Below, one piece after another: positions 1-28,579 of a stretch of DNA of 35,183 bases; position 1 is the stretch's first letter, and each line of letters starts with the position of its first letter. Under the pieces are notes generated by a model. The model saw only the letters and a program-made list of their open reading frames with translations, was not told the origin of the DNA and did no database searches. The position numbers and the translations under genes were made by a program. This DNA is from Deltaproteobacteria bacterium (GTDB lineage Bacteria > Desulfobacterota > Dissulfuribacteria > Dissulfuribacterales > QOAL01), in assembly GCA_027028245.1 (NCBI GenBank), contig JALVJO010000101.1:1-35183 (forward strand). The letters run 5' to 3'.

Positions 1-67
1 TTGATGAAAGCGGCTGCAAAAAGGAAATAGAAAGGGATTGTTATATCGTAATGACCTAAAAAGAGGG
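1..67. other. Short non-coding left edge
   Basis: This stretch lies downstream of the first minus-strand gene. I see no open frame with a ribosome site, no T-run hairpin and no RNA gene in it. It may contain the 3' end of the transcript, but nothing in the sequence proves that. Confidence 0.4.
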
Positions 68-622
68 TCATATCCTGTACCTGGAGCTGAAGGCCTGTTG
101 TGTGTCAAATATCCTTTCACCTGCCATTGCCTCGAGTTCCTCCCTTTTGGGACGGATGAGCAACATGCATGCAGCCCCGATGAGGGCAAGTATATAGACG
201 TGATGAAATCCGCGGCCGGAAAGAAAAAGCGCTGTGCCGGCCATACCCACGGTTTCCACAATGTACATGGCTATTATTGTTGCCGCGTAATAGTTGGCGA
301 AAAACGCAGGCTTGACATTCCTGAACCTGATGCCCCGATTCACCTTGATTCTGCCTTCCAGAACGAACTGCCTGAAAAAATATGCGAATACCAGCATGCC
401 TGCCCCTATCAGATAAATTATATTTTCTGTATTCATCAGGCCTGGAATGGAGCTGCTGATATCAGAGACAGGCTGTGTGTATTGCACGTTCTGCATCATG
501 GCCCTTGAGGCCATTTGGCTTAACAAGACGCAGAGGCCAAGGGATGCCAGCATGCAGATCCAAAGGATCTGCAGAAGCTTGAATTGTTTAATCACCTCTC
601 TTCTTTCCTGTTCATGAAGCAT
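68..622 (-). CDS. Small membrane protein of unknown function (four predicted TM segments)
   Basis: An integral membrane protein of about 184 residues that I do not recognise. From the ATG at 622, hydrophobic segments lie near residues 17-36, 66-84, 108-127 and 132-152. A positively charged stretch (EGRIKVNRGIRFRNVK) joins the second and third and is probably cytoplasmic. An upstream ATG at 646 is in frame, but the 622 start has AAGGGAAG seven bases before it while 646 has no ribosome site, so I prefer 622. It is the last gene of a minus-strand operon, 48 bases after the response regulator stop. That position suggests a membrane partner of the two-component locus, but this is only inferred from context. 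Confidence 0.72.
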   Translation of the reverse strand: MLHEQERREVIKQFKLLQILWICMLASLGLCVLLSQMASRAMMQNVQYTQPVSDISSSIPGLMNTENIIYLIGAGMLVFAYFFRQFVLEGRIKVNRGIRFRNVKPAFFANYYAATIIAMYIVETVGMAGTALFLSGRGFHHVYILALIGAACMLLIRPKREELEAMAGERIFDTQQAFSSRYRI

Positions 623-670
623 GTTTTCTTCCCTTGATTGTTGCATGTCATAACCGGTAACGCTGTCTGC

Positions 671-1363
671 CTAAGGGCAGTCTGCCATGGCATAACCCGT
701 TCCGTGGACCGTTCTTATCCATTTCTCACCGCTTGACATCCTGCCGAGTTTTCTCCGGAGGCGGCTGACAACCGAGTCCACCACGCGGTCGGTTACGAAA
801 TTGCCGTCCCATACCAGCTCAATCAGATTGTCCCTTGTGAAGACCCATCCCGGTCTTTTCATCAAAGCTGAGAGCAGGCGGTACTCAGTCCTGGTAAGGC
901 TGATGGGTGTGCCGCGGACGGACACTTCCCTCCTGTTCTCGTTGAGGACAATGCCGCAGTGCTTTATCACGGAGTCGTTTTCACACTGTATATCCCAGTG
1001 TCTCCGTCTCAATACGGCATTTATTCTTGCGCCGACTTCCCTGGGGCTGAATGGTTTTACTATGTAGTCATCTGCCCCGAGCTCCAGGCCGAGTATCTTG
1101 TCAACTTCATCTCTCCTGGCAGTCAGGATGAGTATGGGGGTTGTATCCCTGCTCTTCCTGACTGCCCTGCAGAAGTCTATTCCGTTGCCGTCAGGGAGAT
1201 TGAGGTCCAGCAGGACGGCGTCAAAGGAGCCCTTTTCCCAGGTCTGCAGGGCATCCTCAAGGGTGAGGCAGTGTGTAAGGCTGTGCCCGTATGTCTGCTG
1301 CAGTGGAAGCTCCAGACTCCTGGCAATGCCAATTTCATCTTCTATCAAGAGGATATTGCCCAT
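671..1363 (-). CDS. OmpR/PhoB-family DNA-binding response regulator
   Basis: A two-component response regulator of 230 residues, the normal length for the OmpR/PhoB family. The receiver domain fills residues 1-118. It has the acidic pair at E8-D9, the phospho-acceptor Asp53 in LLDLNLPDG, the switch Thr81 and the invariant Lys103 in IVKPF. The C-terminal winged helix (about 130-228) carries the usual LTRTEYRLL, GWVFTRDNL, VVDSVVSRLRRKL and IRTVHGTGY blocks, so it should bind DNA and control transcription. It is the fourth gene of an operon encoding exported proteins. The only histidine kinase in the window is divergent from the head of that operon, 5.8 kb away, and is the likely partner. Family assignment is secure; the target genes are inferred. 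Confidence 0.95.
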   Translation of the reverse strand: MGNILLIEDEIGIARSLELPLQQTYGHSLTHCLTLEDALQTWEKGSFDAVLLDLNLPDGNGIDFCRAVRKSRDTTPILILTARRDEVDKILGLELGADDYIVKPFSPREVGARINAVLRRRHWDIQCENDSVIKHCGIVLNENRREVSVRGTPISLTRTEYRLLSALMKRPGWVFTRDNLIELVWDGNFVTDRVVDSVVSRLRRKLGRMSSGEKWIRTVHGTGYAMADCP

Positions 1364-1399
1364 TTTCCTGCCTTCCCGGGGAAACAGACTCGTGATCAG

Positions 1400-1948
1400 C
1401 TATCTTTGCGGGCAGGCAACCTGGTTTCCATAGGCATCCGTGCAGGTTCCGGTGTGTGTCAGGCCGGATCCTGTGCTGTAGCTGGTCTGCCCCTGGTAGG
1501 ATGCGCCGCTCTGGGACTGGACACTGGTATTCCTTGATCCTGATACAGTGCCGTCTGATGCCCTGCTGAATCCTCCCTGGCTCTGAACACTTCCCATGCT
1601 GCCTGAAACGGCCATGCCGCTTTGATGGTTGACTGTACCGTCTGACGTGCGCGTAGTATAGCCTCCACGTCCTCCAACGGTACCTGCAGGAGTCTTGAAT
1701 GCAGTGGCCGAACCGGCTGCAAGATTGCCCTGTCCATCCGTGCTCATGGTCCTCGTGCGGAAGGAACCGGCATTGGGTGCCTTGAATCCTGAGATACTGC
1801 TATGAGTTACACCGCCTGCTGCATTTCCGTGAAATCCCCGGGTACTGAATCGCCCGCCTGCATCAGCCTGCTGCGTAATAAAAAGAGCAAACCCGAACAC
1901 CAAGAAGGTCAAAGTCCAAGTAAAATTAAAAATTGTCTGTAATTTCAT
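1400..1948 (-). CDS. Secreted Gly/Ser/Thr-rich repeat protein, unknown function
   Basis: A small exported protein of 182 residues that I cannot assign to a family. Residues 1-31 form a signal peptide with cleavage expected after QQADA. The mature part is very rich in Gly, Ser, Thr and Gln and consists of about four loose repeats of 25-32 residues. The repeats are built around R(T/A)SDGTV followed by a SGxxxVSGS or SVQSQ element. The tail has a close pair of cysteines (CTDAYGNQVAC) that could form a disulfide. The composition fits an extended or beta-stacked surface protein, not a globular enzyme. It sits 30 bases after the large exported protein and 36 before the response regulator, so it is probably co-transcribed with them. 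A ribosome site AAAGGAGG lies nine to ten bases before the ATG. Confidence 0.8.
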   Translation of the reverse strand: MKLQTIFNFTWTLTFLVFGFALFITQQADAGGRFSTRGFHGNAAGGVTHSSISGFKAPNAGSFRTRTMSTDGQGNLAAGSATAFKTPAGTVGGRGGYTTRTSDGTVNHQSGMAVSGSMGSVQSQGGFSRASDGTVSGSRNTSVQSQSGASYQGQTSYSTGSGLTHTGTCTDAYGNQVACPQR

Positions 1949-1977
1949 TATATTATCCTCCTTTAACTATGATCTTC

Positions 1978-4900
1978 TTACTTACTGTCCGATATTGTGA
2001 TGGAAATACTGTCAAAAAATGCATATCTGGACGTTGAATTTGAACCTGCAAAAGCGGTCTTTTTGAGCAAAAGCCTGAGACTGCCAGTGTGTTCAGGTAC
2101 GGGGACACTTGTCTGCACTTGCTTCCACGTAGTTGACGGGACGTATTCGGTGTTCAAGTAGGTGTTGATCCTTTCGGGGTCCTGTTCTGTTCCAATGAGA
2201 ACGCAGCGGATATACGGGAAGCCGTCTTCTGCATTATCGTCAGAGCTTTTCATCGTTCCCCTGATAATCAATTCAGCCCGGCCGCTTTTTATCTTATCGG
2301 AATATCCAGACAGATCTATATTTTGGATAAGATGTCCGTCTTCAAGGATGAACATCCTGTCATCATCCATGTCCTGGACCCAGCCGTCAGCCCAACTGTC
2401 GTCCCAGCCCTGAAGTCCGTTGTCAAATTCGGGATTCATGACAAGGTTCGGTGGAGACTGGGTGGAATACCGGATTTCAAGCCGCGGCCTGCAGGAAATA
2501 TCCAGGCTCTCCCTTGAGCAATAAAAGGAGGCGGAATAATAGAAGTCCTCTGGAATGGCCACCATGAGGCCGTTATTTTCCATGGAGCCGCTTATCCAAC
2601 CCCTTGCAAGGGATGTAATGTCATATGTCTCAACCTCCTTCGGGGCTCCTGGTTCCACTATTTCCCCTGCTGCAACGGGTTCAGGATCGAAATCTCCTCC
2701 AGGCTCGTTCCACGGGCTTGTTCCGTCATAGGATGCCCAGGTCACGCCATCTGATATCTCGCCATAGGTGCCAGAGCCCTCTTTCCACCAGTGAAGGAGC
2801 CTGTAGATCTGCCTCCTGGAGGGATTATACGACTGCTGAGTCCTGGTGAGCATCAGGCGCGCAGAGTCTATATGGGCATCTTCAGGAATTTCCAGGCCGG
2901 AAAGGTCGAATCTTATGAAAAAACGCCATGCCGGGGCCAATGAATTGTATGCAACAAGTTGCTGGCTCTTTCCGAAATTGCCCCCTGAATCTATCCTGAT
3001 ATAGGCATCGGTTGTACCCTGGTAGGATGGAATATCTCCAGCAGGCATCCCGTCTTGCAGTACCAGGGTTCCGGGACTGCCTGGACCGGGTGTCTGGTTC
3101 CTGCTGACCACTACTTCCACGGAATCCGTGACTTCCTGGTTGATTCCGTCGTTGACGGCAAGGGTGAAGTGAAGGGTCAGGCTGGTTCCGTCAGGTACCT
3201 CAGGGGCGGTGAAGCGGGCCTCTGGGGAATCCTGTTCCTGGATGACTACCTGCACCAGGTCTTCCGGTGCCTGGCTCCAACGAAATTCCAGGGTATCTCC
3301 GTCAGGGTCATGGGAGCCAGAGCCGTCAAGGACCACTTCCTCGCCCTCCCGGGCCGTAATGTCGCTTCCTGCATCAGCCACAGGGGGCTGGTTTTCATCC
3401 GGCGGCAGGCCTGAATCTTCTGCGTAATAGAGATATACATGGCCGAAGACCGCTGCATTGGCCGCCTCCTTGGCCGTCATGTAGGTGAGGGTGTCGCCGG
3501 GGTAACCCTGATTCATGGAAGCATTGAAAAAGAGTTCCCGGGCAAGATCGAGGTAATCCCTCTTCCCGGTGTACTTGTATGCGTAGGCAAAGACATCGGC
3601 TGTTGCATATTCCCAGTTGCATATCAGCACGTCATCCTCTGGGGTGTGGCCGTCAAGATACCAGTAGGGATAATAGATGCCGGTATATGTTATGTCCCTG
3701 TAATCATCGGGATCATATTGCCCAAGGGCGTAATCCTTCATCCAGTCTATAAAGCGCATGAATATGGTGCGGGCCTTGGCTACCTGGGGAGAGAGGCCGT
3801 ATTCTTCAAGGGCGCCTATGTACCAGCCCATGGCATGGAGGTACATGACGAGGTTCCACTCGTTGATATAAAGTGTCGGATCCTTTGAAGGGTCGGGCCC
3901 GTTCAGCCAGCTCCATTCCTCCTTTTCCGGATCTGGATAGTAGTACTCGATCAGGCCCTGGATCAGGTTTTGATACCTTTTATCTCCTGTGAGCAGGAAT
4001 CCCGCGGTAAGGTGATTGATCACGTTTGCCATCTCCCGGATGGGCGGATTGACCCCTTCGGGGCCGCCGCTGGTGATCTCCCTTCCTATGAAATTTTCAT
4101 AGGCTCCGCCCCTGGTATACCTGGGAATGCCATCTTGCATGTAAAAGGAATAGGTGTAGTCAGAGATCTTTTCCAGGAAGATCCTGCTGACAGGATAGCC
4201 GGTGAGATAGTAACTCAATAGTGCGCCCGGGGCGCCGAAACTGGTATCAAGCACCGGGCCGAGATAGTTTCTCTGCCCGTTCTTGTTGCCTGTCTCGTTG
4301 TGCTCTGCATGACCGAACACGGCATTTTTCCATCGTTCTATATCCCAGCCGGTCTCGGTCACAACGTCATGGAGCATCAACTGCTCGGAGTATTTCGAGA
4401 TGGCCTGGGCCATCTCCCTCCAGTCCAGATCACCCTTTCTCAGGAACTGGAGCCATGCCCCGTAATCAATGTCGTACTTGCTGTCAAAGGGGCCGGCCTT
4501 TCCATCACCATATGATTCGTAATCAAGGGGGAGATTTCCATAGCCGCAGCCCAGGGCTCCGAAAAAGTTGAAATAGTCCCTGCTGCTGGGAGATCTTTCC
4601 GAACTCTTCCACAGGCTGTGAAAAGGATAATAGGTGGAATACGGCCCGTTATAGTTTACGTCTTCAATGATGGTCCGGTCATTGTAATAATCGTACATTT
4701 CCGGCAGAGTAAGTCTTGTGAAATCCCCGTCCAGTTCTGAATAGAGCTTGGAGTAAAGGGCATCCTTATCTTCTGCTGCGGCGGTCTCCTGTATGGCCTG
4801 GCCAGGCAGGTATGATTCAAGGGGCATCACGGCTGCCATTGGGCTGAGAATACTTTTGGATGTCCTGGCTGCATCAGAAGCCGCTGCATTGCCGTGGTGG

Positions 4901-6174
4901 AAGTAGAGGAAAAATTCCGAGGTCTTTTCCTCGCCCACCCTGAAATTGTAGAGTCCGCTGTAATCTTCCGGCAGGAGCTTGATCTTTATAACACCCGTGT
5001 TTGTTGCTTCCAGGGCCTTGGGAAATTCCTGCCAGAAATTTGCTGTTCCTGCAGAAATTCCCCTGTCATCAGAGGATAAGTCCATCCAGCCTGCAAATTT
5101 ATCTCCTGAATCCAGCTTACTGCTGTTCAGACCAGCCTCGTAGCCCCTAAAGCGGCAATAGCTCGTGGGCCTTGGAATATCGGCTGCCGTATAGTTGTCC
5201 CAGAAGTCCGTGCCGGAGGAATCCTGGTATATGAGAATCGTGCCGTTGAGGCTGCCTGAAATTTCTCCGGAGCTGCCCGGAAAGAGATAAGAGATCTGGT
5301 TCGTGCTGTCTTCGAGATTCATTACTGCGCTTAGATCCCTGAAAGTAACGCTGTTTTGGCCGTAATAGTCATAAACGTCGTACTTGCCGTTTTCTCCCAC
5401 AGCGGCCTTTCGGTGGTTTCCAAGGGTGAACAGTATGCGGACATAGCTCTTTTCCAGGTAGAAATAGAGGTACGCCCTGTAATCCAGAAGAGGGGATAGG
5501 GACGAGTCCCTCAGGCTTCCCTCAATGCGAAGTACAAGCCTTACAGGCCCTTGCTCCTCGATTTCAAAGACCTTGGGTTTATCATTAATGGTCGAATAGG
5601 GACGGCCTGATTCGTCTGTCAGTACTATCTTATTATCAGAAGAGCTTGTTATTACCGCACCGCCGGAAGTCACCTTGTCGAACAGTGTGAAATGGTCCCT
5701 GTTCAAGGTGAAAACAGCGGCTCCGGTGTCTATGGTTATGGAGTTGTCATTATTTTCAGTTACAGTAATGCCCTCGGCATTTACTGCCCCACCTTTATCT
5801 ACAAGCCGGTATTGTGATTCCCCCCTGGAAGGAACTGATGCAAGAAAGGTGGCAAGAACCCATTTCGCCGGCTTTGATGCATCGTCAGGAGAGCCTCCCC
5901 ATCTTGCGGCGACCTGGAACTGGCACGGAACCTGCCGGCCGCTTTCATCTACCATGGCAAGGGATTGAGTGCTGGTGACTGCCTGTTCTCTCGGGATGGG
6001 GATGCCGGCGCTGACAGGATCAAGAGCCCGGTCTTGTGACAGGGTGTTTACCACCCTGACCGGAATATTCAAGCTCCCGGCCAGGGCGCTGCCGCAACCG
6101 ATGATACCAAACAATATCAGCATTGCTGCCGCTATCATTTTAAAGGGGATACTCATTGCCTCTTTCGTCTTCAT
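1978..6174 (-). CDS. Large modular exported protein: RIFT-barrel/lyase-like region, PKD-like, DNRLRE-like and C-terminal jelly-roll-like domains
   Basis: An exported protein of 1,398 residues. The ATG at 6174 has AAGGAGG six bases upstream; the in-frame ATG at 6201 has no ribosome site and would add nine basic residues before the signal. Residues 1-32 are a signal sequence that can be read as a lipoprotein signal (IIGC, Cys27) or a standard one (SALA|G). Residues 34 to about 450 resemble the RIFT-barrel part of YetA/exo-rhamnogalacturonan-lyase-like proteins (VSAGIPIPRE near the start). A Trp/Tyr-rich helical region to about 915 looks like an alpha/alpha-toroid. A PKD-like domain (VADAGSDITAREGE, SHDPDGDTL) follows at about 922-1025, then a DNRLRE-like domain at about 1038-1240 and a jelly-roll-like C-terminus. 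It probably binds or cleaves a polysaccharide outside the cytoplasm; the substrate is unknown. Confidence 0.8.
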   Translation of the reverse strand: MKTKEAMSIPFKMIAAAMLILFGIIGCGSALAGSLNIPVRVVNTLSQDRALDPVSAGIPIPREQAVTSTQSLAMVDESGRQVPCQFQVAARWGGSPDDASKPAKWVLATFLASVPSRGESQYRLVDKGGAVNAEGITVTENNDNSITIDTGAAVFTLNRDHFTLFDKVTSGGAVITSSSDNKIVLTDESGRPYSTINDKPKVFEIEEQGPVRLVLRIEGSLRDSSLSPLLDYRAYLYFYLEKSYVRILFTLGNHRKAAVGENGKYDVYDYYGQNSVTFRDLSAVMNLEDSTNQISYLFPGSSGEISGSLNGTILIYQDSSGTDFWDNYTAADIPRPTSYCRFRGYEAGLNSSKLDSGDKFAGWMDLSSDDRGISAGTANFWQEFPKALEATNTGVIKIKLLPEDYSGLYNFRVGEEKTSEFFLYFHHGNAAASDAARTSKSILSPMAAVMPLESYLPGQAIQETAAAEDKDALYSKLYSELDGDFTRLTLPEMYDYYNDRTIIEDVNYNGPYSTYYPFHSLWKSSERSPSSRDYFNFFGALGCGYGNLPLDYESYGDGKAGPFDSKYDIDYGAWLQFLRKGDLDWREMAQAISKYSEQLMLHDVVTETGWDIERWKNAVFGHAEHNETGNKNGQRNYLGPVLDTSFGAPGALLSYYLTGYPVSRIFLEKISDYTYSFYMQDGIPRYTRGGAYENFIGREITSGGPEGVNPPIREMANVINHLTAGFLLTGDKRYQNLIQGLIEYYYPDPEKEEWSWLNGPDPSKDPTLYINEWNLVMYLHAMGWYIGALEEYGLSPQVAKARTIFMRFIDWMKDYALGQYDPDDYRDITYTGIYYPYWYLDGHTPEDDVLICNWEYATADVFAYAYKYTGKRDYLDLARELFFNASMNQGYPGDTLTYMTAKEAANAAVFGHVYLYYAEDSGLPPDENQPPVADAGSDITAREGEEVVLDGSGSHDPDGDTLEFRWSQAPEDLVQVVIQEQDSPEARFTAPEVPDGTSLTLHFTLAVNDGINQEVTDSVEVVVSRNQTPGPGSPGTLVLQDGMPAGDIPSYQGTTDAYIRIDSGGNFGKSQQLVAYNSLAPAWRFFIRFDLSGLEIPEDAHIDSARLMLTRTQQSYNPSRRQIYRLLHWWKEGSGTYGEISDGVTWASYDGTSPWNEPGGDFDPEPVAAGEIVEPGAPKEVETYDITSLARGWISGSMENNGLMVAIPEDFYYSASFYCSRESLDISCRPRLEIRYSTQSPPNLVMNPEFDNGLQGWDDSWADGWVQDMDDDRMFILEDGHLIQNIDLSGYSDKIKSGRAELIIRGTMKSSDDNAEDGFPYIRCVLIGTEQDPERINTYLNTEYVPSTTWKQVQTSVPVPEHTGSLRLLLKKTAFAGSNSTSRYAFFDSISITISDSK

Positions 6175-6218
6175 GAAGCGCCTCCTTGGGCCGTACGGCA
6201 TTGCTTTCCGGGATCATT

Positions 6219-7127
6219 TTAAAGCTGGCATGAAAAGGCCGGGCTCAGCATGAAAACCTCAAAGAAGTACAGTTTTCCCGCATTGCTCAGGAGCAGCAGC
6301 CTGCTTCCAATGCCTGTAAGGCCATTTATGTCTGCAAGAAGGCTTTGGGGATTGATGGGTCCGTCTTCTGCTGCCTCTATGATGCTGCCGATAATGAGCT
6401 CGAATTTTTCCAGGCCGGGAAGGAGAGCGGAATCGGGTATCTTTGTCTTAAGGCTGCTGGCCTTTACTGCCTGTAAAAGCCTGCCGTTCAACCTGGCTCT
6501 CAGTGTATCAGACAGGTATGCAGAGTCGAGCAGGGCCTGCCAGGCCTGTTCCAGCTCCGACGAGGTTTCTTCTGTCAATCCCCCGTCTGCTTCAATCTCT
6601 AACAAGGCGCACTGGAGGATGATGTAAAAGGCATTGAGACTGTCAAGCACTTCCTCGGGAATGACCAGGGCGAGCTGCAGGTCCTGGAGTTTTTCTTTCT
6701 GTTCTTCAGTGAGTACGCTGTCGATGGAGCCTGCAGCAAAAAATGCCTGGGTGAACATGGAGAGCCTACTTTCCTTCATGACCTGCATCTTTTTTTGAAT
6801 GATTCTGTGCTCGTCAGCAGAGATATTTCCATCTTGGCCTGCCTGCTGTGCGGTTTTGAGCAGATCTTCCCGGCGCTGGTCCTCAAGGGCAATCCAGTTT
6901 CTGAAATTTTCCCTGAAGGCCTCTGAAATTCGTGCCACTTCCCCGGCCTGCTGGCTAGTCAGCTCAAGTGCGGAGGCTATCTGCCCTGCTGCCTGGCCTG
7001 CGATGCTTTTTTCCAGTTCAGGGGTGCATATTCTCGCGCATAATGCCTGACTGGTACTCATGCCGAGAATAAGTATACAGGCATAGATGGTCCACAGGAT
7101 AATCATGTTTTTCTCGCTTTTTTTCAT
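6219..7127 (-). CDS. Periplasmic LTxxQ-motif (Spy/CpxP-like) protein
   Basis: An exported, mostly helical protein of 302 residues. The signal peptide covers about residues 1-31. Two LTxxQ motifs, LTSQQ at 56-60 and LTEEQ at 139-143, flank a charged helical region. This is the hallmark of the Spy/CpxP family of periplasmic chaperones and stress sensors, though this protein is about twice their usual length. Three DG-[NGP]-[IL] motifs (near residues 99, 181 and 255) look like degenerate EF-hand-type loops. The gene is first in the minus-strand operon that also encodes the response regulator, and it is divergent from the kinase gene, as cpxP is divergent from cpxRA. AAGGAG lies eight bases before the ATG. 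The motif is visible; a role as negative regulator of the kinase is inferred. Confidence 0.8.
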   Translation of the reverse strand: MKKSEKNMIILWTIYACILILGMSTSQALCARICTPELEKSIAGQAAGQIASALELTSQQAGEVARISEAFRENFRNWIALEDQRREDLLKTAQQAGQDGNISADEHRIIQKKMQVMKESRLSMFTQAFFAAGSIDSVLTEEQKEKLQDLQLALVIPEEVLDSLNAFYIILQCALLEIEADGGLTEETSSELEQAWQALLDSAYLSDTLRARLNGRLLQAVKASSLKTKIPDSALLPGLEKFELIIGSIIEAAEDGPINPQSLLADINGLTGIGSRLLLLSNAGKLYFFEVFMLSPAFSCQL

Positions 7128-7212
7128 GGTCTTTTCTCCTTTTTCCTGTATTTGTTAAAGGAGATAATAGGGGACATTGTTTACAGTTTTTTTCTGAAAA
7201 TGTGTTGATTTT
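7128..7212. promoter_or_regulatory. Divergent promoter region between the LTxxQ operon and the kinase gene
   Basis: Only 85 bases separate the two divergent starts, so both promoters and any operator must lie here. It is AT-rich. An eleven-base-spaced direct repeat (TGTGTTGATTT then TGTGACAAAA) overlaps the kinase start and has the spacing typical of OmpR-family binding sites. I could not fix -35 and -10 boxes with confidence. Confidence 0.4.
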
Positions 7213-8673
7213 GTGACAAAAAAATTAAGCGATGTGAGCTTTTTTAAAAAAAGAGCGGGCAATAAGTACTTCGGCGGGATCTACAGAAAGACCCTATTTA
7301 TCACCGTACCAGTGGTGGTCCTCTGCAGCCTTGCCATTGTGGCCGCTATCCTCTTAATGCTCAAGACCGAGGTCTGGAACATATATGAAAAAAGCGTCCT
7401 GGCAGGCATAGAGGCCCTGGCCGGAGAGCTTTCCTGTCAGGGTGGCGATCTCAGAAGGATCGCTGAAATCCTTGAAAGATCCAGAAAGAGCAGTTTTCGC
7501 TGCTTTGTCTATGGTTCCAGCAGCAGGCCCCTTTACTGGTCAAAAGGCACTCCAAGGCCACAAGAGATGTTGAATGCCGGCATGAATATGCTTGGAACAC
7601 GAAAGGCCGCGGCTTCCAGGGGCAGTTGCGGGGGCAGAAGGGGCATCCTTGCAGCTGCAAGGCCCGACAAGGATCATGTTCTTGTATTGATGGAGGATGC
7701 GGCAAGACTTCAGACCATCAGATGGCGGGGCCTGTTCATTATTTCAGCCCTGCTCATCTCCTCGGTTATTGCCGTGGTACTGCTTATGTCAAGGCTTCTT
7801 GTGGTTCCCATTCTCCGCCGCATGGAGGAACTTCAGGCATCTATTTCAAGATTCGGTTCAGGAGAAAGGGAAGTTCGTCTCGAGACCGGAGCTGAAAAGG
7901 CAGATGAGTTTGACGAGGTGTTTGCAGGCTTCAACTCCATGGCTGAGCAGATATGCGAATACGAAAGGGAAACGGCCAGGATGGCAAGGGAAGAAAAGGC
8001 CCTGCTTGCCCAGCTCGCCCATGATATCAACACGCCTATTTCCATTTTAAGGGCCAATGCAGAGAACCTGAACGTGTACGGAGATTCCTTGGAGCCTGAA
8101 AAGAGACAGGAGATCCAGACCGACATGCTGGCCCAGTGCATTTACATACAGGCCCTCGTTGATGACCTCTTGACCATGGCTTCGGCCAGGATTGCTGAAA
8201 TCTCCATAAATCCGTCCATGGTGGTCCTTGACGATATGTTTGATTCTCTTGTCAATACCTTCAGCCCGGTAGCCCGGCAGAAAGGCATCGTGCTTGTGGC
8301 AGACGGAAAGGGGCTTGAGGCCTGGGCAGATCCCATAAGGCTCAGACAGATTCTCACCAACCTGGTCAAGAATTCCATTGTCCACGGCGCAAATGTGTCC
8401 ACCATAGAGATAGATGCCACAGAAAAGGCAGAGATGGTATCTATAGTGGTGAAAGATGACGGGCAGGGAATCGATCCTGAAAATATCCAGAGACTCTTTG
8501 AACGCTTTCAAAAGGCTCCGGGAAACAAAACAGGGGGCTGGGGCCTGGGCCTTGCCATCGTAAAGATGCTGGCCGAGCTCCAGGGAGGAACATGCCTGTT
8601 TCACAGCTCGGAAGACGGGGCTGTGTTTGAGGTTCTCCTGCCGCATGGCCCGGCTGCAGGATCAGGGAAGTAG
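7213..8673 (+). CDS. Membrane sensor histidine kinase
   Basis: A sensor kinase of 486 residues that should phosphorylate a response regulator, probably the one at 671-1363. Transmembrane helices at about 28-50 and 173-196 enclose a periplasmic sensor of some 120 residues without a recognisable fold. A HAMP linker follows, then the HisKA helix with His270 in LAHDINTPISIL. The ATPase domain has the N box LTNLVKNSIVHG, G1 box DDGQGID, F box LFERFQ and G2 box GGWGLGLAIVK, all intact. The start is a GTG at 7213 without a good ribosome site; a second GTG at 7234 is an alternative, so the first seven residues are uncertain. The gene is separated from its presumed regulator by the divergent operon of exported proteins. 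Confidence 0.93.
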   Translation: MTKKLSDVSFFKKRAGNKYFGGIYRKTLFITVPVVVLCSLAIVAAILLMLKTEVWNIYEKSVLAGIEALAGELSCQGGDLRRIAEILERSRKSSFRCFVYGSSSRPLYWSKGTPRPQEMLNAGMNMLGTRKAAASRGSCGGRRGILAAARPDKDHVLVLMEDAARLQTIRWRGLFIISALLISSVIAVVLLMSRLLVVPILRRMEELQASISRFGSGEREVRLETGAEKADEFDEVFAGFNSMAEQICEYERETARMAREEKALLAQLAHDINTPISILRANAENLNVYGDSLEPEKRQEIQTDMLAQCIYIQALVDDLLTMASARIAEISINPSMVVLDDMFDSLVNTFSPVARQKGIVLVADGKGLEAWADPIRLRQILTNLVKNSIVHGANVSTIEIDATEKAEMVSIVVKDDGQGIDPENIQRLFERFQKAPGNKTGGWGLGLAIVKMLAELQGGTCLFHSSEDGAVFEVLLPHGPAAGSGK

Positions 8674-9421: not shown

Positions 9422-9763
9422 GTCCTTCAGTAGCCAGGGAGCGGGCAGCTCAAGGCTTTCGCGTCGTGGCGGTCCGCCCGGGTGTTTCGACTTCGCTCTC
9501 GGCGCTGACAGTATCTATCATGAGTTCAGGCACAGGGTGGTTGAAAGAATCTACCATCTCCCTGGTGTGATTCTGGGCGATAGTCCTTTTAATGGTGGCA
9601 TGAACTAAGTATGGGCAGATTATTTCGCATCCAGCATTACAAGAGATCTGCGGTAAGGTGAGGTGATCTGCAGCGCCAGAAACGCGGTATTTATAGGTTA
9701 GTGCAAGGTACACAAAAAAATAAGGCACATACTCTTTTCGAATCCGGGAAAGGGAGGTCTGAA
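9422..9763. other. 342-base intergenic stretch without a recognised gene
   Basis: No open frame here has both a ribosome site and a recognisable product. A 92-codon minus-strand frame at 9450-9728 is open but has no ribosome site and low-complexity content. A small perfect hairpin GGCGG-T-CCGCC lies at 9469-9479 without a T-run. The base composition changes from GC-rich to AT-rich near 9690, where the promoter of the beta-helix gene is expected. Confidence 0.4.
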
Positions 9764-11485
9764 ATGAAAAGAACTCAACTGGCAGTGCTGATGATCATTG
9801 CTGCAATGTACGTGTTTATCAGTCCGACATCCAGAAGTTCAGCCGCAGAATTCCATGTAACTAATGGGAATGAACTGTGGTCAGTGCTGTTGGATGAAGT
9901 TCCGTCAAACGGAGAAGACGATGTTGTTTACCTGGCTGCCGGGACTTACTCTCATAATTTTCCCCATCGACCCCCTAGCGGCTGTTTTACTACTTCAGCC
10001 GGAGGCGACTCGCTGACCATCATGGGTGAGCCTGGAACAACTGCATCAGATGTTGTTATTGATGCCCACGGCAGGTGTTATTGTCTGCAAATTTTGGATA
10101 GAAGTCTTCATCCCAGCTACACTGACCTGCCCTATGAAACAGTTTCGGATCCGGAGTTTGATCGGCCGGAGATTGTTGTTTCAGGCATAACCTTTCAAAA
10201 CGGTGAAAGTACATATGATACTGCCGGGCTGTATATCGCCGCTGATTATTATTCTGTTGTTGTAAAGGACTCCATTATTAGGAACAATTCTTCAGGCAGC
10301 GGCCACGGCGGCGGTTTACATGTTTCCGGTGCCTTTAATCTGTTGCTGGAAAACAACCAGATCCTGAACAACACTGTCCGCGAACGGCTGGTCCATACTG
10401 GTTCTCATGATCATCCAGTGGAAGAGATAAATAGTCGCGGTGGAGGAGTACATGTCTGGAATGCCTGGAACGGCGTTACGGTCATAAACAATATCGTCGC
10501 CGCCAACGTCGCTGAGGGCAATTCTTCTGAAGGCGGCGGCATGTATATCTGCCACAGCTGCGGAACAACAGCCCAGTTGATCAACAACACGATTTACGGC
10601 AACATTGCCAGTGAGGGCGGCGGAGTCCATTTTTCAGATATCCCCAGCCTGGGCGGTACCATCAACCTTTATAATAATATCATCTATGCCAACACCGCAA
10701 CCGGCAGTGAAGGCAGCGCTGATCTTTATTTCTGGGAGGATCCTGCTATTGGGGAAGGGTGGCGCGTCAAGGTCTATGCCTATAACAACAATTTTTCTCA
10801 TGTCCTCGGGACCATGACCGAGTCAGCCCAAAATTTGAACACAGATCCTAGGTTTGTGAATTCGGCTGCCGGCAACTTTCATTTGGCCCACGGCTCACCC
10901 ATGATAAATGCCGGCCGAAATATCGTACCTGATCCCCCGGGTCTGCCGGCAACCGATTTTGAAGGAGACGGCAGGGTTAACGGAGGTATCCCTGATATTG
11001 GGGCAGATGAGTACTATCCCGGCAGGGGAGGGGTTCCCAGGAGAAGAATGCCTGCCGGTCTGGATATCAGAAGTCACGGCAAGGAGGGACCCTTTATAAA
11101 GAAGCCATTTGCAAGGGCAAGTCTTACCATCTCTCTGGCCGCCAATGACGACAAGGGCAAAAAGAGCACCTTGTGGATCGTTATGAATTCGCCCATGGGG
11201 ACTTATTTCCTGTCAGGAAAAGGCTGGACTAAAGAGAAGGCTGTCTATTACAAGGGCCCTTTAAGGGATATCCTTCCCGTTGACCTGCCCAGGCCGCCGC
11301 GGTTTGTCAAGGAAGGCGATTACCAGTTCTATTTTATTCTGGATATGCCCGGGCCGCCCTTTAGGCGGATAAAAACAGGGAAGAAGACAACTTCAAAGAT
11401 AACCTTGTCCGACAGCATAGTGTTTCATGTGACAGGGAAAGACGGGAAAAGGCAATTTCACAAGCCGCCGTTAAATCGAAAATAA
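9764..11485 (+). CDS. Secreted right-handed beta-helix protein (choice-of-anchor Q type)
   Basis: An exported protein of 573 residues. I chose the ATG at 9764 because GGGAGG lies six bases upstream and the signal peptide (to about SSAA|E, residue 28) starts there; the frame is open further up to 9701. Residues 30 to about 420 show the repeated N-rich rungs of a parallel beta-helix (SIIRNNSSG, NQILNNTVR, NNTIYGNIASEGGG, NNIIYANTA). They end in the DxDGRVNGGIPDIGADEYYPG block typical of choice-of-anchor Q proteins. Such folds occur in polysaccharide lyases and adhesins. No lyase active site can be picked out by eye. The last 135 residues form a separate basic, Pro-rich beta domain that I do not recognise. 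It stands alone on the plus strand. Confidence 0.82.
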   Translation: MKRTQLAVLMIIAAMYVFISPTSRSSAAEFHVTNGNELWSVLLDEVPSNGEDDVVYLAAGTYSHNFPHRPPSGCFTTSAGGDSLTIMGEPGTTASDVVIDAHGRCYCLQILDRSLHPSYTDLPYETVSDPEFDRPEIVVSGITFQNGESTYDTAGLYIAADYYSVVVKDSIIRNNSSGSGHGGGLHVSGAFNLLLENNQILNNTVRERLVHTGSHDHPVEEINSRGGGVHVWNAWNGVTVINNIVAANVAEGNSSEGGGMYICHSCGTTAQLINNTIYGNIASEGGGVHFSDIPSLGGTINLYNNIIYANTATGSEGSADLYFWEDPAIGEGWRVKVYAYNNNFSHVLGTMTESAQNLNTDPRFVNSAAGNFHLAHGSPMINAGRNIVPDPPGLPATDFEGDGRVNGGIPDIGADEYYPGRGGVPRRRMPAGLDIRSHGKEGPFIKKPFARASLTISLAANDDKGKKSTLWIVMNSPMGTYFLSGKGWTKEKAVYYKGPLRDILPVDLPRPPRFVKEGDYQFYFILDMPGPPFRRIKTGKKTTSKITLSDSIVFHVTGKDGKRQFHKPPLNRK

Positions 11486-13578: not shown

Positions 13579-15135
13579 ATGAACAGACTCCCCATAGGCA
13601 TACAGTCCTTTAAAGAGATCAGGAAAGACTATGTTTATGTGGATAAGACCAAGACTGTATACGAGCTTGTCAATGGGGGGAAATACCTCTTTTTCTCAAG
13701 GCCGAGGAGATTTGGGAAATCCCTTCTTGTGGATACCCTGAGGCATCTCTTTGAGGCAAGGAAGGGGCTTTTTGAAGGGCTCTGGTTGGAGGACAGGTGG
13801 AGGTGGGAAGAGAGCTTTCCTGTCATAAAGATTGACATGGGAGGTCTGGTAAACAGGGAGATCGAGGCCTTTTCAAGGAGTCTTGGGAATCTATTTAAAA
13901 ATATTTATGAAAGATATGGGCACCTGGATGGGTTTGATGAAGGCCTTTCTCCCAATGACCTTATGTTGAACCTTGTAGTAGAGATATCCAAGAAAAGGGG
14001 TCAGCAGGTGGTCATCCTTATAGACGAATACGATAAACCCATCATAGACAACATTGAGAGGCCGGAATATGCAGTTGAGATCAGGGATTACCTCAGGAGC
14101 TTCTACGAGGTCTTTAAGGGTCTTGACGAGCACATAAGGTTTTTCTTCATGACAGGAGTTAGCAAGTTTTCAAGGGTAAGCCTGTTTTCAGGCCTGAACA
14201 ACCTTGAAGACATCTCCCTTTACCCCGCCTTTGGAACACTTCTTGGCTATACAGAAAAGGAGATCAGGGAGAATTTTTCAGGCTACCTTGAGGGAGTAAA
14301 TCTTGATGAGATGCGCTACTGGTACAACGGCTACAACTTTTTGGGGGAAGAGCGTGTCTATAATCCCTTTGACATCCTGCAATTCCTGAAATCAAAGAAG
14401 TACCAGAACTACTGGTTCCGGACAGGCACGCCGTCTTTTCTCATAAAGGTCCTGGAAGAGAGGGAAGAAGAGCCCGATATCCCGGGGATAGAAAATACAG
14501 AGCTGTCGGCAGACCTACTTGATGCATTTGACTGCTATACCATGCCCATAGAGACGCTGTTGTTTCAGACAGGCTATCTGACAATTAGGGAAGAGATGGA
14601 AGAGGCAGGGGAGCTTTACTACACCCTCGAACTTCCAAACTATGAGGTGAGACAGAGCCTCAACAGGGAGCTTCTTTTCAGTTACTTAAAGGCAGGGGAC
14701 AAGAAAAAGGAGATAGGAAGAAGAAGGGCCCTTTGGAAGGCCTTAAGAGAAGAGGATATTGAGGGGTTTATAAGGATAATAGAGGCCCTTTTTGCAGGGA
14801 TTCCCTATTCCACAGTGGATCTTGCAAGATATGAAGACTATTACAAGTCGGTGCTGTACGCCTTTCTCATGGGAGCAGGCCTTGAAGTGACAGCAGAAGA
14901 CATCATGGACAGGGGCAGGATGGATTTAAGCATCAGGCTCCCTGAGATCTATCACAGGGATTCTCCAGTGGTAATCCTTGAGCTCAAGGTGGTAACCAAG
15001 AAGGAAAACAAGGCCCTCAGGCAGATAAGGGATCGTGGTTATCACAGAAAATATGCAGACCGTTCCTGCTTTTTGGTAGGGCTTGAGTTCAACAAGCATA
15101 CAAAGAGGCTTTATGCAGCCTGGGAAAGGGCCTGA
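13579..15135 (+). CDS. AAA-ATPase-like / PD-(D/E)XK nuclease family protein (DUF1703 type)
   Basis: A protein of 518 residues, the usual length for this family. The N-terminal block (LPIGIQSFKEIRKDYVYVDK) and the P-loop-like segment SRPRRFGKSLL at 40-50 belong to the AAA-ATPase-like domain. The Walker B segment VVILIDEYDKP is near 143-153. The C-terminal domain (about 400-515) ends with the nuclease core MDLSIRLPE...VVILELKV near 450-472, where the Asp and the ELK triplet fit a PD-(D/E)XK active site. These proteins are often present in many copies per genome and their function is not settled; defence or mobile-element links are suspected. AAAGGAGG lies nine bases before the ATG. The gene is alone between two inverted palindromic elements. 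Confidence 0.92.
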   Translation: MNRLPIGIQSFKEIRKDYVYVDKTKTVYELVNGGKYLFFSRPRRFGKSLLVDTLRHLFEARKGLFEGLWLEDRWRWEESFPVIKIDMGGLVNREIEAFSRSLGNLFKNIYERYGHLDGFDEGLSPNDLMLNLVVEISKKRGQQVVILIDEYDKPIIDNIERPEYAVEIRDYLRSFYEVFKGLDEHIRFFFMTGVSKFSRVSLFSGLNNLEDISLYPAFGTLLGYTEKEIRENFSGYLEGVNLDEMRYWYNGYNFLGEERVYNPFDILQFLKSKKYQNYWFRTGTPSFLIKVLEEREEEPDIPGIENTELSADLLDAFDCYTMPIETLLFQTGYLTIREEMEEAGELYYTLELPNYEVRQSLNRELLFSYLKAGDKKKEIGRRRALWKALREEDIEGFIRIIEALFAGIPYSTVDLARYEDYYKSVLYAFLMGAGLEVTAEDIMDRGRMDLSIRLPEIYHRDSPVVILELKVVTKKENKALRQIRDRGYHRKYADRSCFLVGLEFNKHTKRLYAAWERA

Positions 15136-16920: not shown

Positions 16921-18096
16921 CTACCTAAGGAGAAACCCCATGAGCCTGATATCCTCCAGGCGGAGGGGGGCAAGTTCCTTGTTCAGCCTGTCCAGCAGGG
17001 GACGGCGGTATCTTGTAAGCAGGTCTCCCTTGACGCCTCTTGATATGTTTATGCCCTTCAGCTCCTGGTAGATAATGTCCCTTACCCAGGCCTCTCTTTT
17101 CAGAAGTTCCTGCTTGGTTGTAGCATCAGGGACTATGAGCTCAATCCGCAGCTTGAAAAAGACGAGATCTCCTGATTTCTGGGCGGGAATCAGAAAGGGC
17201 GCAAGATCTATGGCCTGGGCAGTGCCCCTTGCCGGGCTTTTGGCAAGTTTCAGCGCAGACTCGGCCGGGACCTGCATGGTTTTTTGCTGGTTTTTCGAAG
17301 AAACAGGTGCGGGATTTGCCGGCCTTTTGTCCGCACTGGATGCCATGAGCCAGATGGTAAATACGGCAGCAACACACAGGCCTGCTGAAAGGCCGGTGAC
17401 AATCCAGGGGATCAAGCCCTTTATACCGGCGCCTTCAGGTGCTGATACTTCCCGGTTTTCTTCCGGGGGTTGTTCATCCGAACCCTCCCGGGATTCCTGG
17501 GAGGTTTCGTCCTCAGCGGCCTCTACCTCTGAACTGCCTGTATCTTCTGGTCCCTCTTCAGCTGCACTTTCCCCGGAGTTCTCTTCCTGGGCATTTTCTT
17601 CCGACGGGGTTTCAGGTTTTTCTTCCTTTTCCTTCTTCGAGGCCTTTTTTTCCAGGGGCTGGCCTGTTTCTTCTGTTTTGCTTTCTGCTTCCGGTTCCAG
17701 CTCCTGTTCCAGGAATTCTTCCTCGAAAAGGGGGATTTCTTCTATGTCGTCGTCTTCCCAGAGCTCATCGTCTCCAAGATCTATTCCCGTTTCGTCATCA
17801 TCCATGCTGCTGCCCGGGGGGGCAGAGTCTGCACCCTGTTCCGGGGTTGATCCTTCGGGCCCTTTCTCCTGAACAGAAGCCGTCTCGTTTGATGCCATGT
17901 TCTGAAGGCTTTCGGCATCCGGGGGGCTTTCAGCATTCAGGCTCAGATCGTCCCGGCCGGCTGGTGCATCCTGTGCTGCGGTCTCAGCGCCTGAATCCCG
18001 GGCATCTTCAGAAATATTCAGCTCTTCCATCTGCTGGTTGATCTCCTCCAGGGATTCAGAGATGGCGGCTGTCTTGTCAGCGGCCGGTTCGCCCAT
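16921..18096 (-). CDS. FliL-domain membrane protein with a long acidic cytoplasmic N-terminus
   Basis: A protein of 391 residues with one transmembrane helix at about 227-252. Residues 1-225 are low-complexity, extremely rich in Glu, Asp, Ser and Pro, with a short basic patch (KKASKKEKEEK) near 150-160, and should be disordered in the cytoplasm. The periplasmic part, about 295-391, resembles the FliL C-terminal domain (FFKLRIELIVPD, YQELKG, LLDRLNKELAP, LEDIRLMGFLL). FliL proteins surround the stator-rotor interface and affect motor torque. Normal FliL has only about 20-30 residues before its helix, so this is an unusual second FliL beside the standard one at 28580-29104. It is 10 bases after cheY in the operon. 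The start codon has only a weak ribosome site. Confidence 0.75.
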   Translation of the reverse strand: MGEPAADKTAAISESLEEINQQMEELNISEDARDSGAETAAQDAPAGRDDLSLNAESPPDAESLQNMASNETASVQEKGPEGSTPEQGADSAPPGSSMDDDETGIDLGDDELWEDDDIEEIPLFEEEFLEQELEPEAESKTEETGQPLEKKASKKEKEEKPETPSEENAQEENSGESAAEEGPEDTGSSEVEAAEDETSQESREGSDEQPPEENREVSAPEGAGIKGLIPWIVTGLSAGLCVAAVFTIWLMASSADKRPANPAPVSSKNQQKTMQVPAESALKLAKSPARGTAQAIDLAPFLIPAQKSGDLVFFKLRIELIVPDATTKQELLKREAWVRDIIYQELKGINISRGVKGDLLTRYRRPLLDRLNKELAPLRLEDIRLMGFLLR

Positions 18097-18106
18097 TTCT
18101 CAATTC

Positions 18107-18487
18107 TTATTCAAAGATCTTTTCTATCTTTTCACCCAGTGTTTCAGGGGTAAAGGGCTTTACTATGTAGTTGCTTACCTTGGCCTTTACGGCTTCAATG
18201 ATGTTTTCCTTCTGGGCCTCAGCAGTAACCATCAGAAAGGGTGTTTGCTGGAGCTTGTCATCGGCCCTGACCTTTTTAAGCAGTTCGATGCCGGTCATCT
18301 TGGGCATGTTCCAGTCGGAAACGATGAAATCCACCGGTTCTTTCTGAAGCATTTCCCAGGCAACCGAGCCGTCGTCGGCCTCCACGAAGTTTTTGAATCC
18401 AAGCTGTGTGAGAATATTTTTCACGATTCTGCGCATGGTGGCAAAATCATCCACGATCATTACAGTCATGTTATAGTCAATAGCCAT
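18107..18487 (-). CDS. cheY: Chemotaxis response regulator CheY
   Basis: A single receiver domain of 126 residues that, when phosphorylated, binds the flagellar switch and reverses or stops rotation. The acidic pair Asp13-Asp14, phospho-acceptor Asp58 (SDWNMP), Thr88 and Lys110 (VKPFTPE) are all present, and there is no output domain. The ATG at 18487 has AGGAGG six bases upstream. It lies between fliA and the second FliL-domain gene. The 86-base gap before it is larger than most in the operon and might hold an extra promoter. Its likely targets in this window are FliM and possibly FliN, both of which have CheY-binding-type peptides. Confidence 0.96.
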   Translation of the reverse strand: MAIDYNMTVMIVDDFATMRRIVKNILTQLGFKNFVEADDGSVAWEMLQKEPVDFIVSDWNMPKMTGIELLKKVRADDKLQQTPFLMVTAEAQKENIIEAVKAKVSNYIVKPFTPETLGEKIEKIFE

Positions 18488-18573
18488 TTATGTCCTCCTG
18501 GAAGTAGTGGTTAATCTCTTAATCGTACTTTCTGCCTTCTTTCATTAAGACTTCCGGATAAAGGTGCCTGCTC

Positions 18574-19392
18574 TTAAAAAAGTTCCTTGAATTCAGCAAG
18601 TTCAGCTTGAGAAAAGCCCTCGGAAAGATAGGACCTTATCCTGATGATGGCCTTTGTATGCATCTGGGAAATCCGGCTTTCGGTGTAGCCCATGATCTCA
18701 CCTATCTCCTTCATGGTCAGGTCCTCGAAGTAATACAGGGAAACCACCAGTTTTTCCTTTTCCGGCAGGGTTTTAATCCCCTCTATCATGATTTCCTTGA
18801 CCTGAGACAAGTTGAGCTGTTCGAAGGGATCGCTTTCGCCGTCATCTGCTATGAGGTCGAAAAGGTCCTCGTCGTTGGCATCGGGCATCCTCCTTCTTAT
18901 GGCCTCGATATCCAGAAAAGTGACCCCCCTGGTCTTGTCCAGGAGTTTGTAATACTGCTGCAGGCTGATCCCCATTTCCTTTGCAATTTCTTCGTCTTCC
19001 GGCACCCTTTCCAGCTTTTTCTCCAGTCTTTCCACTACCTTTTCAAGTTCGGTGGCCTTTTTGCGGACCGATCTGGGCACCCAGTCAAGATGACGGAGTT
19101 CATCCAGCATGGCACCCCTTATCCTGAATTCTGCATAGGTCTTGAACTTGATCTTTTTGGCAGGATCAAATTTTTCAATGGCATCTATAAGCCCTATTAT
19201 GCCCGGGCCGATCAGGTCTTCCGGCAGGATATGGGGCGGCAGCCTTCCTGCCAGCCGGCTGGCTACGTAATTGACAAGGGGTGAATATTTTACAATGAGC
19301 TCTTCCCGCTTGTCTGGAGTGAGCGTGGCCCCCTGGCCAAAAAATTCCTCGGTATAGTCTTTCAGTTTGGGTGCAGCGCTTGTTCTTGCCAT
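18574..19392 (-). CDS. fliA: Flagellar sigma factor FliA (sigma-28)
   Basis: A sigma-70-family factor of 272 residues that directs RNA polymerase to late flagellar and chemotaxis genes. Region 2 (ILPEDLIGPGIIGLIDAIEKFDP, FKTYAEFRIRGAMLDELR) comes first, followed by the RSVRKKATELEKVV block of region 3 and the region 4 helix-turn-helix (LTMKEIGEIMGYTESRISQMHTKAI). Length is close to that of other FliA proteins. The frame could begin at a TTG at 19401, overlapping flhG, but the ATG at 19392 is the more likely start. The gene follows flhG with a gap of five bases and precedes cheY. No separate anti-sigma factor (FlgM) is in the window. Confidence 0.96.
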   Translation of the reverse strand: MARTSAAPKLKDYTEEFFGQGATLTPDKREELIVKYSPLVNYVASRLAGRLPPHILPEDLIGPGIIGLIDAIEKFDPAKKIKFKTYAEFRIRGAMLDELRHLDWVPRSVRKKATELEKVVERLEKKLERVPEDEEIAKEMGISLQQYYKLLDKTRGVTFLDIEAIRRRMPDANDEDLFDLIADDGESDPFEQLNLSQVKEIMIEGIKTLPEKEKLVVSLYYFEDLTMKEIGEIMGYTESRISQMHTKAIIRIRSYLSEGFSQAELAEFKELF

Positions 19393-19397
19393 GTCTT

Positions 19398-20294
19398 TCA
19401 AAGCCTCAACAGGTCTTGCCAGAAAAATTTTATGTTTCCGTCGTTTCTCTTGCCCTTTTGCTTCAGGACTTCCTCGGCAATCCGCTCAAACTCCTGGCTT
19501 GCCCTGCAGGCCGGGAAGATTTCAAGGGCGGTCTTCTGCTGGCGGACAGATTTCGGGATGCACAGATCCCTGGGGATATAGCCGAGGAAATTGAAGGAAA
19601 GAAAACCCAGGAACCTGTCAGCTACCGAAGTAAGTTGCCTGAAGACGTTCTGGGCCTCTTTTTTGCTGTTTGTCCAGTTTACTATGATGGAAAATTCATT
19701 GACCCTGTACCCTTGGGACAACACCTTGATGAGTGCATAGGCATCGGTAATGGATGTGGGTTCAGGTGTCAAAATTACAACTCTTTCTTCAGACGCCATG
19801 TTGAAATACATGACGGTGTCAGAAATTCCAGCAGCATTGTCGATGAGCATCACGTCAATGGGCTCATCCAGGCTGTCGAATTCGTTTAGCAGAAAGAGCT
19901 TTTCGCTCTCATCAAGAAGGCACATCTCCTGTATGCCCGAGCTTGCAGGAAGCAGCTTGATGCCCTCGGGGCCGTCCAGGATCACGTCTGACAGGCTTTT
20001 CTCCCCGGAAAAAACGTGCTGAATGGAATACTTAGGGGTAATCCCGAGCATCACGTCCACGTTTGCAAGGCCGAGATCGGCATCAAGTATCAGGACATTC
20101 TTGCCCTTTCGCGACACCGCAAGGGCCAGGTTGGTGACAATGCTGGTTTTGCCAACTCCTCCCTTGCCGCTGCTGAAACACAGTACCTTGGGGACCCGGT
20201 ACGAGGTATCCCGGGCAGTACTGCCCCGGTCTGAAATACCAGTCTCGGCGCCGCTGTAATCCTTCCACTCTTTCAATGTAGCTGCCTGATTCAT
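19398..20294 (-). CDS. flhG: Flagellar number regulator FlhG (FleN), MinD-like ATPase
   Basis: A ParA/MinD-family ATPase of 298 residues that limits flagellar number by acting on FlhF and, in some species, on the master regulator. The deviant Walker A SGKGGVGKTS lies at 42-51, followed by ILDADLGLANVDVML and MLIDNAAG. The first residues NQAATLKEW match the DQAxxLR-type activator peptide with which FlhG stimulates the FlhF GTPase. The C-terminus (FFWQDLLRL) could be the amphipathic membrane-targeting helix. It lies 12 bases after flhF and directly before fliA. The flhF-flhG pair points to polar flagella. Confidence 0.94.
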   Translation of the reverse strand: MNQAATLKEWKDYSGAETGISDRGSTARDTSYRVPKVLCFSSGKGGVGKTSIVTNLALAVSRKGKNVLILDADLGLANVDVMLGITPKYSIQHVFSGEKSLSDVILDGPEGIKLLPASSGIQEMCLLDESEKLFLLNEFDSLDEPIDVMLIDNAAGISDTVMYFNMASEERVVILTPEPTSITDAYALIKVLSQGYRVNEFSIIVNWTNSKKEAQNVFRQLTSVADRFLGFLSFNFLGYIPRDLCIPKSVRQQKTALEIFPACRASQEFERIAEEVLKQKGKRNDGNIKFFWQDLLRL

Positions 20295-20306
20295 GTCTTG
20301 TCCACG

Positions 20307-21524: not shown

Positions 21525-21538
21525 GTCTCTCTCCAGCC

Positions 21539-23641: not shown

Positions 23642-23661
23642 ACTGGTGCTCCTCTATTCGC

Positions 23662-24741: not shown

Positions 24742-24752
24742 CTGTCAGTTCC

Positions 24753-25544: not shown

Positions 25545-25557
25545 GGCAGAGCGCTCT

Positions 25558-25827
25558 TCAGCGTATGAAAAGCGGGATATTTACGATGATGTCCCTGGTA
25601 TAGTCCACCATCTTGTTCATCATCCACGGAAAGGCCAGGAGCAGGCCTATGAGCACTGCTATGATCTTTGGAACAAAGGTCAGAGTCATCTCCTGGATCT
25701 GGGTGACTGCCTGGAAGATACTGACCATAAGGCCCACGATGAGACCGAGCCCCAGCATGGGAAGGCTGATCATCAGGGTAAGTTCCACAGCGTTCCTCGC
25801 CATCCCCACCACCATGTCTTGTGTCAT
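25558..25827 (-). CDS. fliQ: Flagellar export gate protein FliQ
   Basis: A small membrane protein of 89 residues with two transmembrane helices (about 17-38 and 51-76), the expected size and topology. Four FliQ copies join five FliP and one FliR in the export gate. The block ISLPMLGLGLIVGLMVSIFQAVTQIQEMTLTFVPKI is close to the family consensus. AGGAGG lies seven bases before the ATG. The gene is four bases after fliP. Confidence 0.96.
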   Translation of the reverse strand: MTQDMVVGMARNAVELTLMISLPMLGLGLIVGLMVSIFQAVTQIQEMTLTFVPKIIAVLIGLLLAFPWMMNKMVDYTRDIIVNIPLFIR

Positions 25828-25831
25828 ATCG

Positions 25832-26916: not shown

Positions 26917-26917
26917 T

Positions 26918-27559: not shown

Positions 27560-27579
27560 GTTAGTCCCCTGAAGATGAA

Positions 27580-28566: not shown

Positions 28567-28579
28567 GTCGCTTTCTCTC

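Follow-up and report, generated by a model that had tools for sequence, protein, structure and literature searches.

The divergent locus at one end of the window appears to encode an envelope-sensing circuit that is Cpx-like in its arrangement, with an exported CpxP-like protein, yet is not orthologous to Cpx. According to this reading, which we regard as probable though well short of certain, a cognate histidine kinase and an OmpR/PhoB-type response regulator control a shared divergent promoter, an exported LTxxQ protein serves as feedback partner, a Gly/Ser-rich secreted protein is a conserved output or client, and a giant exported protein is variable cargo. The window is the whole 35,183-nucleotide stretch analyzed, contig C101 of a 2.86-Mb draft genome of a Deltaproteobacteria bacterium (labeled G000). 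It was compared against 46 genomes of its class and 395 genomes sampled from its phylum, one phylum being covered, with domains called from Pfam and NCBIfam profiles at curated cut-offs. Four genomes recur below: G001 and G002 belong to the same genus, G028 to another family of the order, and G383 to a distant class.

The sensor kinase gene (7213..8673) lies on the plus strand, divergent from a minus-strand operon that reads downward from 7127. The operon is headed by the gene for the LTxxQ (CpxP/Spy-like) exported protein (6219..7127), followed by those for the giant exported modular protein (1978..6201, likely start 6174), a Gly/Ser/Thr-rich secreted protein with a signal peptide and a C-terminal CxD..G..xxCP motif (1400..1948), the OmpR/PhoB-type regulator (671..1363), and a membrane protein with four predicted segments that belongs to no known family (68..646). 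Spacing between genes is a tight 24–44 bases. A gene for a TPR protein (1..71, also on the minus strand) begins at 71, its opening codons overlapping the stop codon of the membrane-protein gene (ATGA), and is then cut by the window edge, beyond which the operon continues; in G002 the TPR gene is whole at the matching place (281 aa) and shows the same stop overlap. The sequence-only reading had placed all of these genes, the TPR gene aside, where they lie, with the regulator fourth in an operon led by the LTxxQ gene and divergent from the kinase, and the layout bears it out. Compared with its window counterpart, the membrane-protein gene of G002 (L063:3565-4100) carries a frameshift that breaks it in two. 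Elsewhere in the window, positions 9701-11485 encode an exported, repeat-containing protein, beta-helix-like by eye, in which NCBIfam recognizes a choice-of-anchor Q domain and DUF5123 matches weakly; 13579-15135 encode a protein that by eye resembles AAA-ATPases and PD-(D/E)XK-type proteins; and the minus strand of 16921-29104 carries a flagellar cluster comprising, again by eye, a sigma factor and FlhG-, FlhF-, FlhA-, FlhB-, FliR-, FliP-, FliN-, and FliM-like open reading frames. A search for defence families found none.

The two signaling proteins are conventional in their domains. The kinase has two membrane segments, a periplasmic part of about 115 residues, and HAMP, HisKA (with H270), and HATPase_c domains. 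The regulator combines Pfam Response_reg and Trans_reg_C with invariant D53 and K103, and so has the receiver with a phospho-accepting Asp and the winged-helix output of the OmpR/PhoB type. Separated onto opposite strands in the window, the two genes might seem to serve other partners, the kinase answering to a regulator elsewhere and the regulator of the LTxxQ operon to another kinase. Such a mispairing is highly improbable, since in G028 the orthologues of both stand next to each other on the same strand, divergent from a relative of the LTxxQ gene. The G028 kinase is 41% identical to that of the window over 285 residues and the regulator 55%; the kinase sensor regions are barely conserved between the two genomes. 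Moreover, G000, G002, and G028 each have the kinase, the LTxxQ protein, and the regulator, whereas none of the three was detected, at the thresholds applied, in G001, a genome 99% complete. Window kinase and regulator are thus very probably a cognate pair. The adjacency in G028 and the joint presence and absence further imply a linked pair, of which the split is a rearranged version or an alternative. The split may be derived or it may be one of several layouts, its polarity lying beyond the reach of three loci. The sequence-only reading had named a different kinase partner elsewhere as its own undoing; the G028 orthologues point the other way. A search among named genomes for close relatives of the kinase turned up only ordinary kinases, at 23-39% identity.

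The same gene order recurs in G002, where the kinase gene is divergent from LTxxQ, a 131-codon remnant, Gly/Ser, regulator, membrane-protein, and TPR genes; conservation of the order in a relative, a check proposed at the outset, thus holds within the genus, with the giant gene reduced. Between G000 and G002 the kinase is 77% identical, the LTxxQ protein 67%, the Gly/Ser-rich protein 81%, and the regulator 84%, with dN/dS values of 0.11-0.18 for these four. Of the giant gene, only the last 131 codons survive in G002 (69% identical, dN/dS 0.17; window residues 1277-1405, 1987..2373 on the minus strand). The remnant starts six bases past the LTxxQ stop codon, midway through the C-terminal domain, and lacks both a signal peptide and a ribosome-binding site. 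A 3.8-kb deletion in G002 would be the simplest account of these features, with misassembly as an alternative.

What does persist alongside the LTxxQ gene is the Gly/Ser family, a rare one. Its members were found in four genomes, G000, G002, G028, and G383 of another class, and every one of them, in the one phylum sampled, adjoins both LTxxQ and two-component genes, the layout taking three forms. In G028, contigs C64 and C152 (L127:1-15000 and L129) overlap exactly by 55 bases at their ends and are very probably neighbors; the joined layout has the LTxxQ gene, then a small unrelated open reading frame, then two tandem Gly/Ser genes (39-42% identical). The G383 locus (L128:10822-12041) has a Gly/Ser gene, containing a masked stretch of N, with an unambiguous LTXXQ gene (40.9 bits) behind it; the two are transcribed divergently from an OmpR-type regulator–kinase pair. 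Consequently, the company of LTxxQ and two-component genes is constant for each Gly/Ser homologue, and what lies between the LTxxQ and Gly/Ser genes varies from locus to locus. Judged by these loci, the LTxxQ gene has its conserved neighbor in the Gly/Ser-rich protein, not in the giant protein. The linkage of LTxxQ and two-component genes claimed for the window accordingly recurs in both G028 and G383. The long LTxxQ subfamily itself was found in G000, G002, and G028 only, among the 46 class genomes and the 395 phylum genomes, and a search for LTxxQ and Gly/Ser proteins on plasmids returned none. The Gly/Ser-rich secreted protein is undescribed, and it is this protein, in place of a conspicuous enzyme, that is conserved with the LTxxQ gene.

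The LTxxQ protein belongs to its family narrowly. It passes Pfam PF07813 marginally (25.4 bits against a cut-off of 24.3), has an N-terminal hydrophobic segment, and carries two motifs 83 residues apart, LTSQQ at residue 56 and LTEEQ at residue 139; score, paired motifs, and signal peptide together identify it as an LTXXQ-family member. Both motifs are kept in the G028 protein, which is 26% identical to that of the window, and both are degenerate in G002 (LDSSQ and LMEEQ). The motif region is followed by a helical C-terminal extension of about 150 residues that ends in EVFMLxPxFxC. Two cysteines, C34 and C300, located close to the two termini of the mature protein, are conserved in G000, G002, and G028, making an end-to-end disulphide possible. 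Profile comparison with a clear LTXXQ protein yielded nothing convincing, and Spy and CpxP in the PDB gave no sequence match. An AlphaFold model built from the single sequence, without an alignment, is helical in outline at low confidence, its mean pLDDT of 45.6 being too poor for a fold search.

The giant gene spans 1407 codons from its first ATG; starting at ATG10, which is preceded by GGAGG, it yields 1398 residues, the very size given earlier for a modular exported protein. Residues of about 46-925 fall within a family whose profile matches the PcRGLX structure (E = 6e-24), and Pfam PcRGLX_2nd scores 47-49 bits. Of the PcRGLX domains, only this second one passes in the window protein; 7 of the 14 family members also match the first and six the third. 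Beyond the PcRGLX-like region lie Ig/PKD and DNRLRE domains and then a C-terminal domain. The most highly conserved motif of the family, H-x2-D-I-D-x2-H, is retained in 13 of 13 aligned relatives, and we infer its role in catalysis from conservation alone. At the corresponding residues 604-612 (4366..4392, minus strand), the window protein instead reads YSEQLMLHD, with Y604, Q607, M609, and D612. The broader form, H-x2-(D/E)-x-D-x2-H, is likewise lacking from the window protein, while Penicillium PcRGLX has H-x2-E-V-D-x2-H. Loss of the motif makes the label “enzyme” doubtful. The protein is most safely described as exported and PcRGLX-like and is probably not an active lyase, more likely binding or scaffolding a glycan than cleaving it, and the annotation “large exported enzyme” is a likely error, corrected here.

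These features bear directly on the proposal that the locus is a glycan-utilization circuit, in which the kinase would sense a polysaccharide or its fragments and induce an exported, active lyase or hydrolase. The PcRGLX-like region, with its Pfam score and profile match, and the glycan-type accessory domains speak in its favor. The loss of HxxDIDxxH speaks against it, as does a neighborhood devoid of identified sugar transporters or other carbohydrate enzymes. Furthermore, none of the other 45 class genomes has the giant protein; in G002 its last 131 codons are all that is left, and the circuit nonetheless remains. We therefore consider a glycan-utilization circuit improbable. A large exported enzyme as the purpose of the circuit, as the sequence-only reading had it, is not supported; its kinase–regulator pairing, gene order, and link between LTxxQ and two-component genes are. 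Across the phylum, PcRGLX-like relatives were found in 20 other genomes among the 395, and none of the 14 such loci read lies beside an LTxxQ gene or a comparable partnered two-component pair. Several of these relatives (L094-L104), some apparently without a signal peptide, lie in exopolysaccharide clusters together with glycosyltransferases and asparagine-synthase-like and polysaccharide-deacetylase-like genes, and a role there in exopolysaccharide processing is possible. A protein resembling the 13579-15135 product of the window is encoded near the PcRGLX-like gene of L102 (15480-17030).

The region between the divergent genes bears a candidate operator. Its extent depends on the start of the kinase gene: the GTG codon at 7213 lacks a ribosome-binding site and overlaps a conserved block that is intergenic in G002, where the kinase begins further in. 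Because of that overlap, GTG 7234 is preferred as the probable start. The divergent intergenic region described earlier is thus more likely about 106 bases long (7128..7233) than the 85 first given. Over 106 aligned bases, this region is 76% identical between G000 and G002, whereas synonymous sites in the genes on either side are 39-55% identical. On the LTxxQ strand of G002 it contains an 11-base tandem repeat, TTGTCACAAAA-TTGTCACAATT, equaled in 17 of 1000 shuffles, in which the candidate site forms a perfect tandem pair, TTGTCACA-N3-TTGTCACA. Tandem 11-base repeats are the sort of site bound by PhoB/OmpR-type regulators. In G000 the first copy is retained along with one half of the second; the site there is TTGTCACAAAATCAACACA (7201..7219, minus strand), a candidate operator that the regulator is predicted to recognize. 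The repeat motif, derived from G002, was matched as well by one of 1000 shuffles for G000 and by none of 1000 for G002; a similar-looking repeat pair in the intergenic region of G028 was not significant. The CpxR box GTAAA-N4-8-GTAAA was not found before the LTxxQ gene, with one GTAAA present in G000 and none at the matching place in G002. Scanning three genomes with the repeat motif gave 12 matches against one in the control. A wider regulon was considered and dropped, the two orthologous hit pairs lying inside glnD or just before the gene for a YfdX-like periplasmic protein. At the latter, in both same-genus genomes (L119:2881-2899 and L120:1408-1426), a match with three mismatches lies 17-35 bases before the likely start, which may be chance, the region being conserved.

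Taken together, a plausible working scheme can be drawn, in which the genetic linkage is observed and regulator binding, LTxxQ feedback, the signal, and the roles of the Gly/Ser-rich and giant proteins are inferred. A change in the envelope or at the surface would act on the kinase, leading to phosphorylated regulator, which would bind the 11-bp tandem sites between the divergent genes and turn the operon on. The operon would make more regulator, creating positive feedback on its own supply, and would also yield the membrane and TPR proteins. The LTxxQ protein would play the part that CpxP plays for CpxA, a periplasmic accessory to the kinase that feeds back on it, with the Gly/Ser-rich protein as conserved output or client. 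The giant PcRGLX-like protein would be an add-on in the slot between them.

A simpler possibility is a plain autoregulated two-component operon whose outputs are the LTxxQ protein, as a periplasmic chaperone, and the Gly/Ser-rich protein, as a surface protein, with no feedback on the kinase. The neighborhood and the conserved promoter region fit this as well as they fit feedback, the LTxxQ motifs have degenerated in G002 though the remaining locus is kept, and the kinase sensor is divergent. Weighing on the other side, the LTxxQ gene is tied to the kinase locus in three independent lineages, as befits a physical partner, an association that a dedicated output would also produce. A plain operon is accordingly a serious contender, yet an unlikely one, and the Cpx-like circuit with LTxxQ feedback remains the reading we prefer. 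Counting against that preferred reading are the marginal LTxxQ score and the degenerate motifs of G002, the poor sequence match to a clear LTXXQ protein and to E. coli CpxP, the weakly conserved kinase sensor regions, and a repeat motif that falls short of significance in G028. More speculatively, and held only tentatively, the locus could represent a rare, sporadic envelope-sensing module, in which the Gly/Ser-rich protein, with its C-terminal cysteine motif, and the extended LTxxQ protein, with its paired end cysteines, form a dedicated sensing and effector pair of an OmpR-type system. The Gly/Ser-rich protein would then be the client or ligand that is read, with cargo, for example a dead lyase-like glycan binder, swapped in and out of the slot. 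The locus supplies four defined genes for probing the role of LTxxQ proteins in bacteria other than enterics.

Among known systems, the giant protein compares with PcRGLX, a Penicillium rhamnogalacturonan exolyase of polysaccharide lyase family 26 (PDB 5XQ3 and 5XQO). The likeness, seen through the family profile, covers the N-terminal region, the beta-sandwich, and the start of the alpha/alpha-toroid. However, PcRGLX and 13 bacterial relatives keep H..(D/E).D..H and the giant protein does not, and a Tyr of the fungal enzyme, different in 5XQO and 5XQ3, sits in an insertion that the bacterial profile lacks. The circuit itself parallels Cpx. In E. coli, cpxP is divergent from cpxRA; here the LTxxQ gene is divergent from the kinase gene in the window and from the kinase–regulator pair in G028. 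Both systems feature an exported protein with two LTxxQ motifs, an OmpR-type two-component locus, and probable autoregulation. In Pseudomonas aeruginosa, too, cpxP encodes a two-LTXXQ-motif protein and is adjacent to cpxR, and CpxR activates its promoter about 100-fold, from 42 to 5245 Miller units (PMC5063474). Unlike in Cpx, the window regulator lies inside the LTxxQ operon, and it is no CpxR equivalog, scoring 153 bits against NCBIfam CpxR (cut-off 341), with CreB at 212 and PhoB at 191, both below their own cut-offs. The kinase shares 25% identity with CpxA in the kinase core only, its sensor finding no match, and is not orthologous. Nor is the LTxxQ protein orthologous to E. coli CpxP (BLAST E = 0.06 over 27 residues; NCBIfam CpxP 17 bits vs. 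148), from which it further differs by its 150-residue extension and end cysteines, and the locus adds the Gly/Ser-rich and giant proteins. In QseG–QseE and ExoR–ExoS, too, an exported, periplasmic accessory protein tunes a sensor kinase (PMC6075780, PMC10659215); what these share with the LTxxQ system is the idea only, the protein families being different. The locus thus extends the CpxP-type arrangement to a system that is not orthologous to Cpx.
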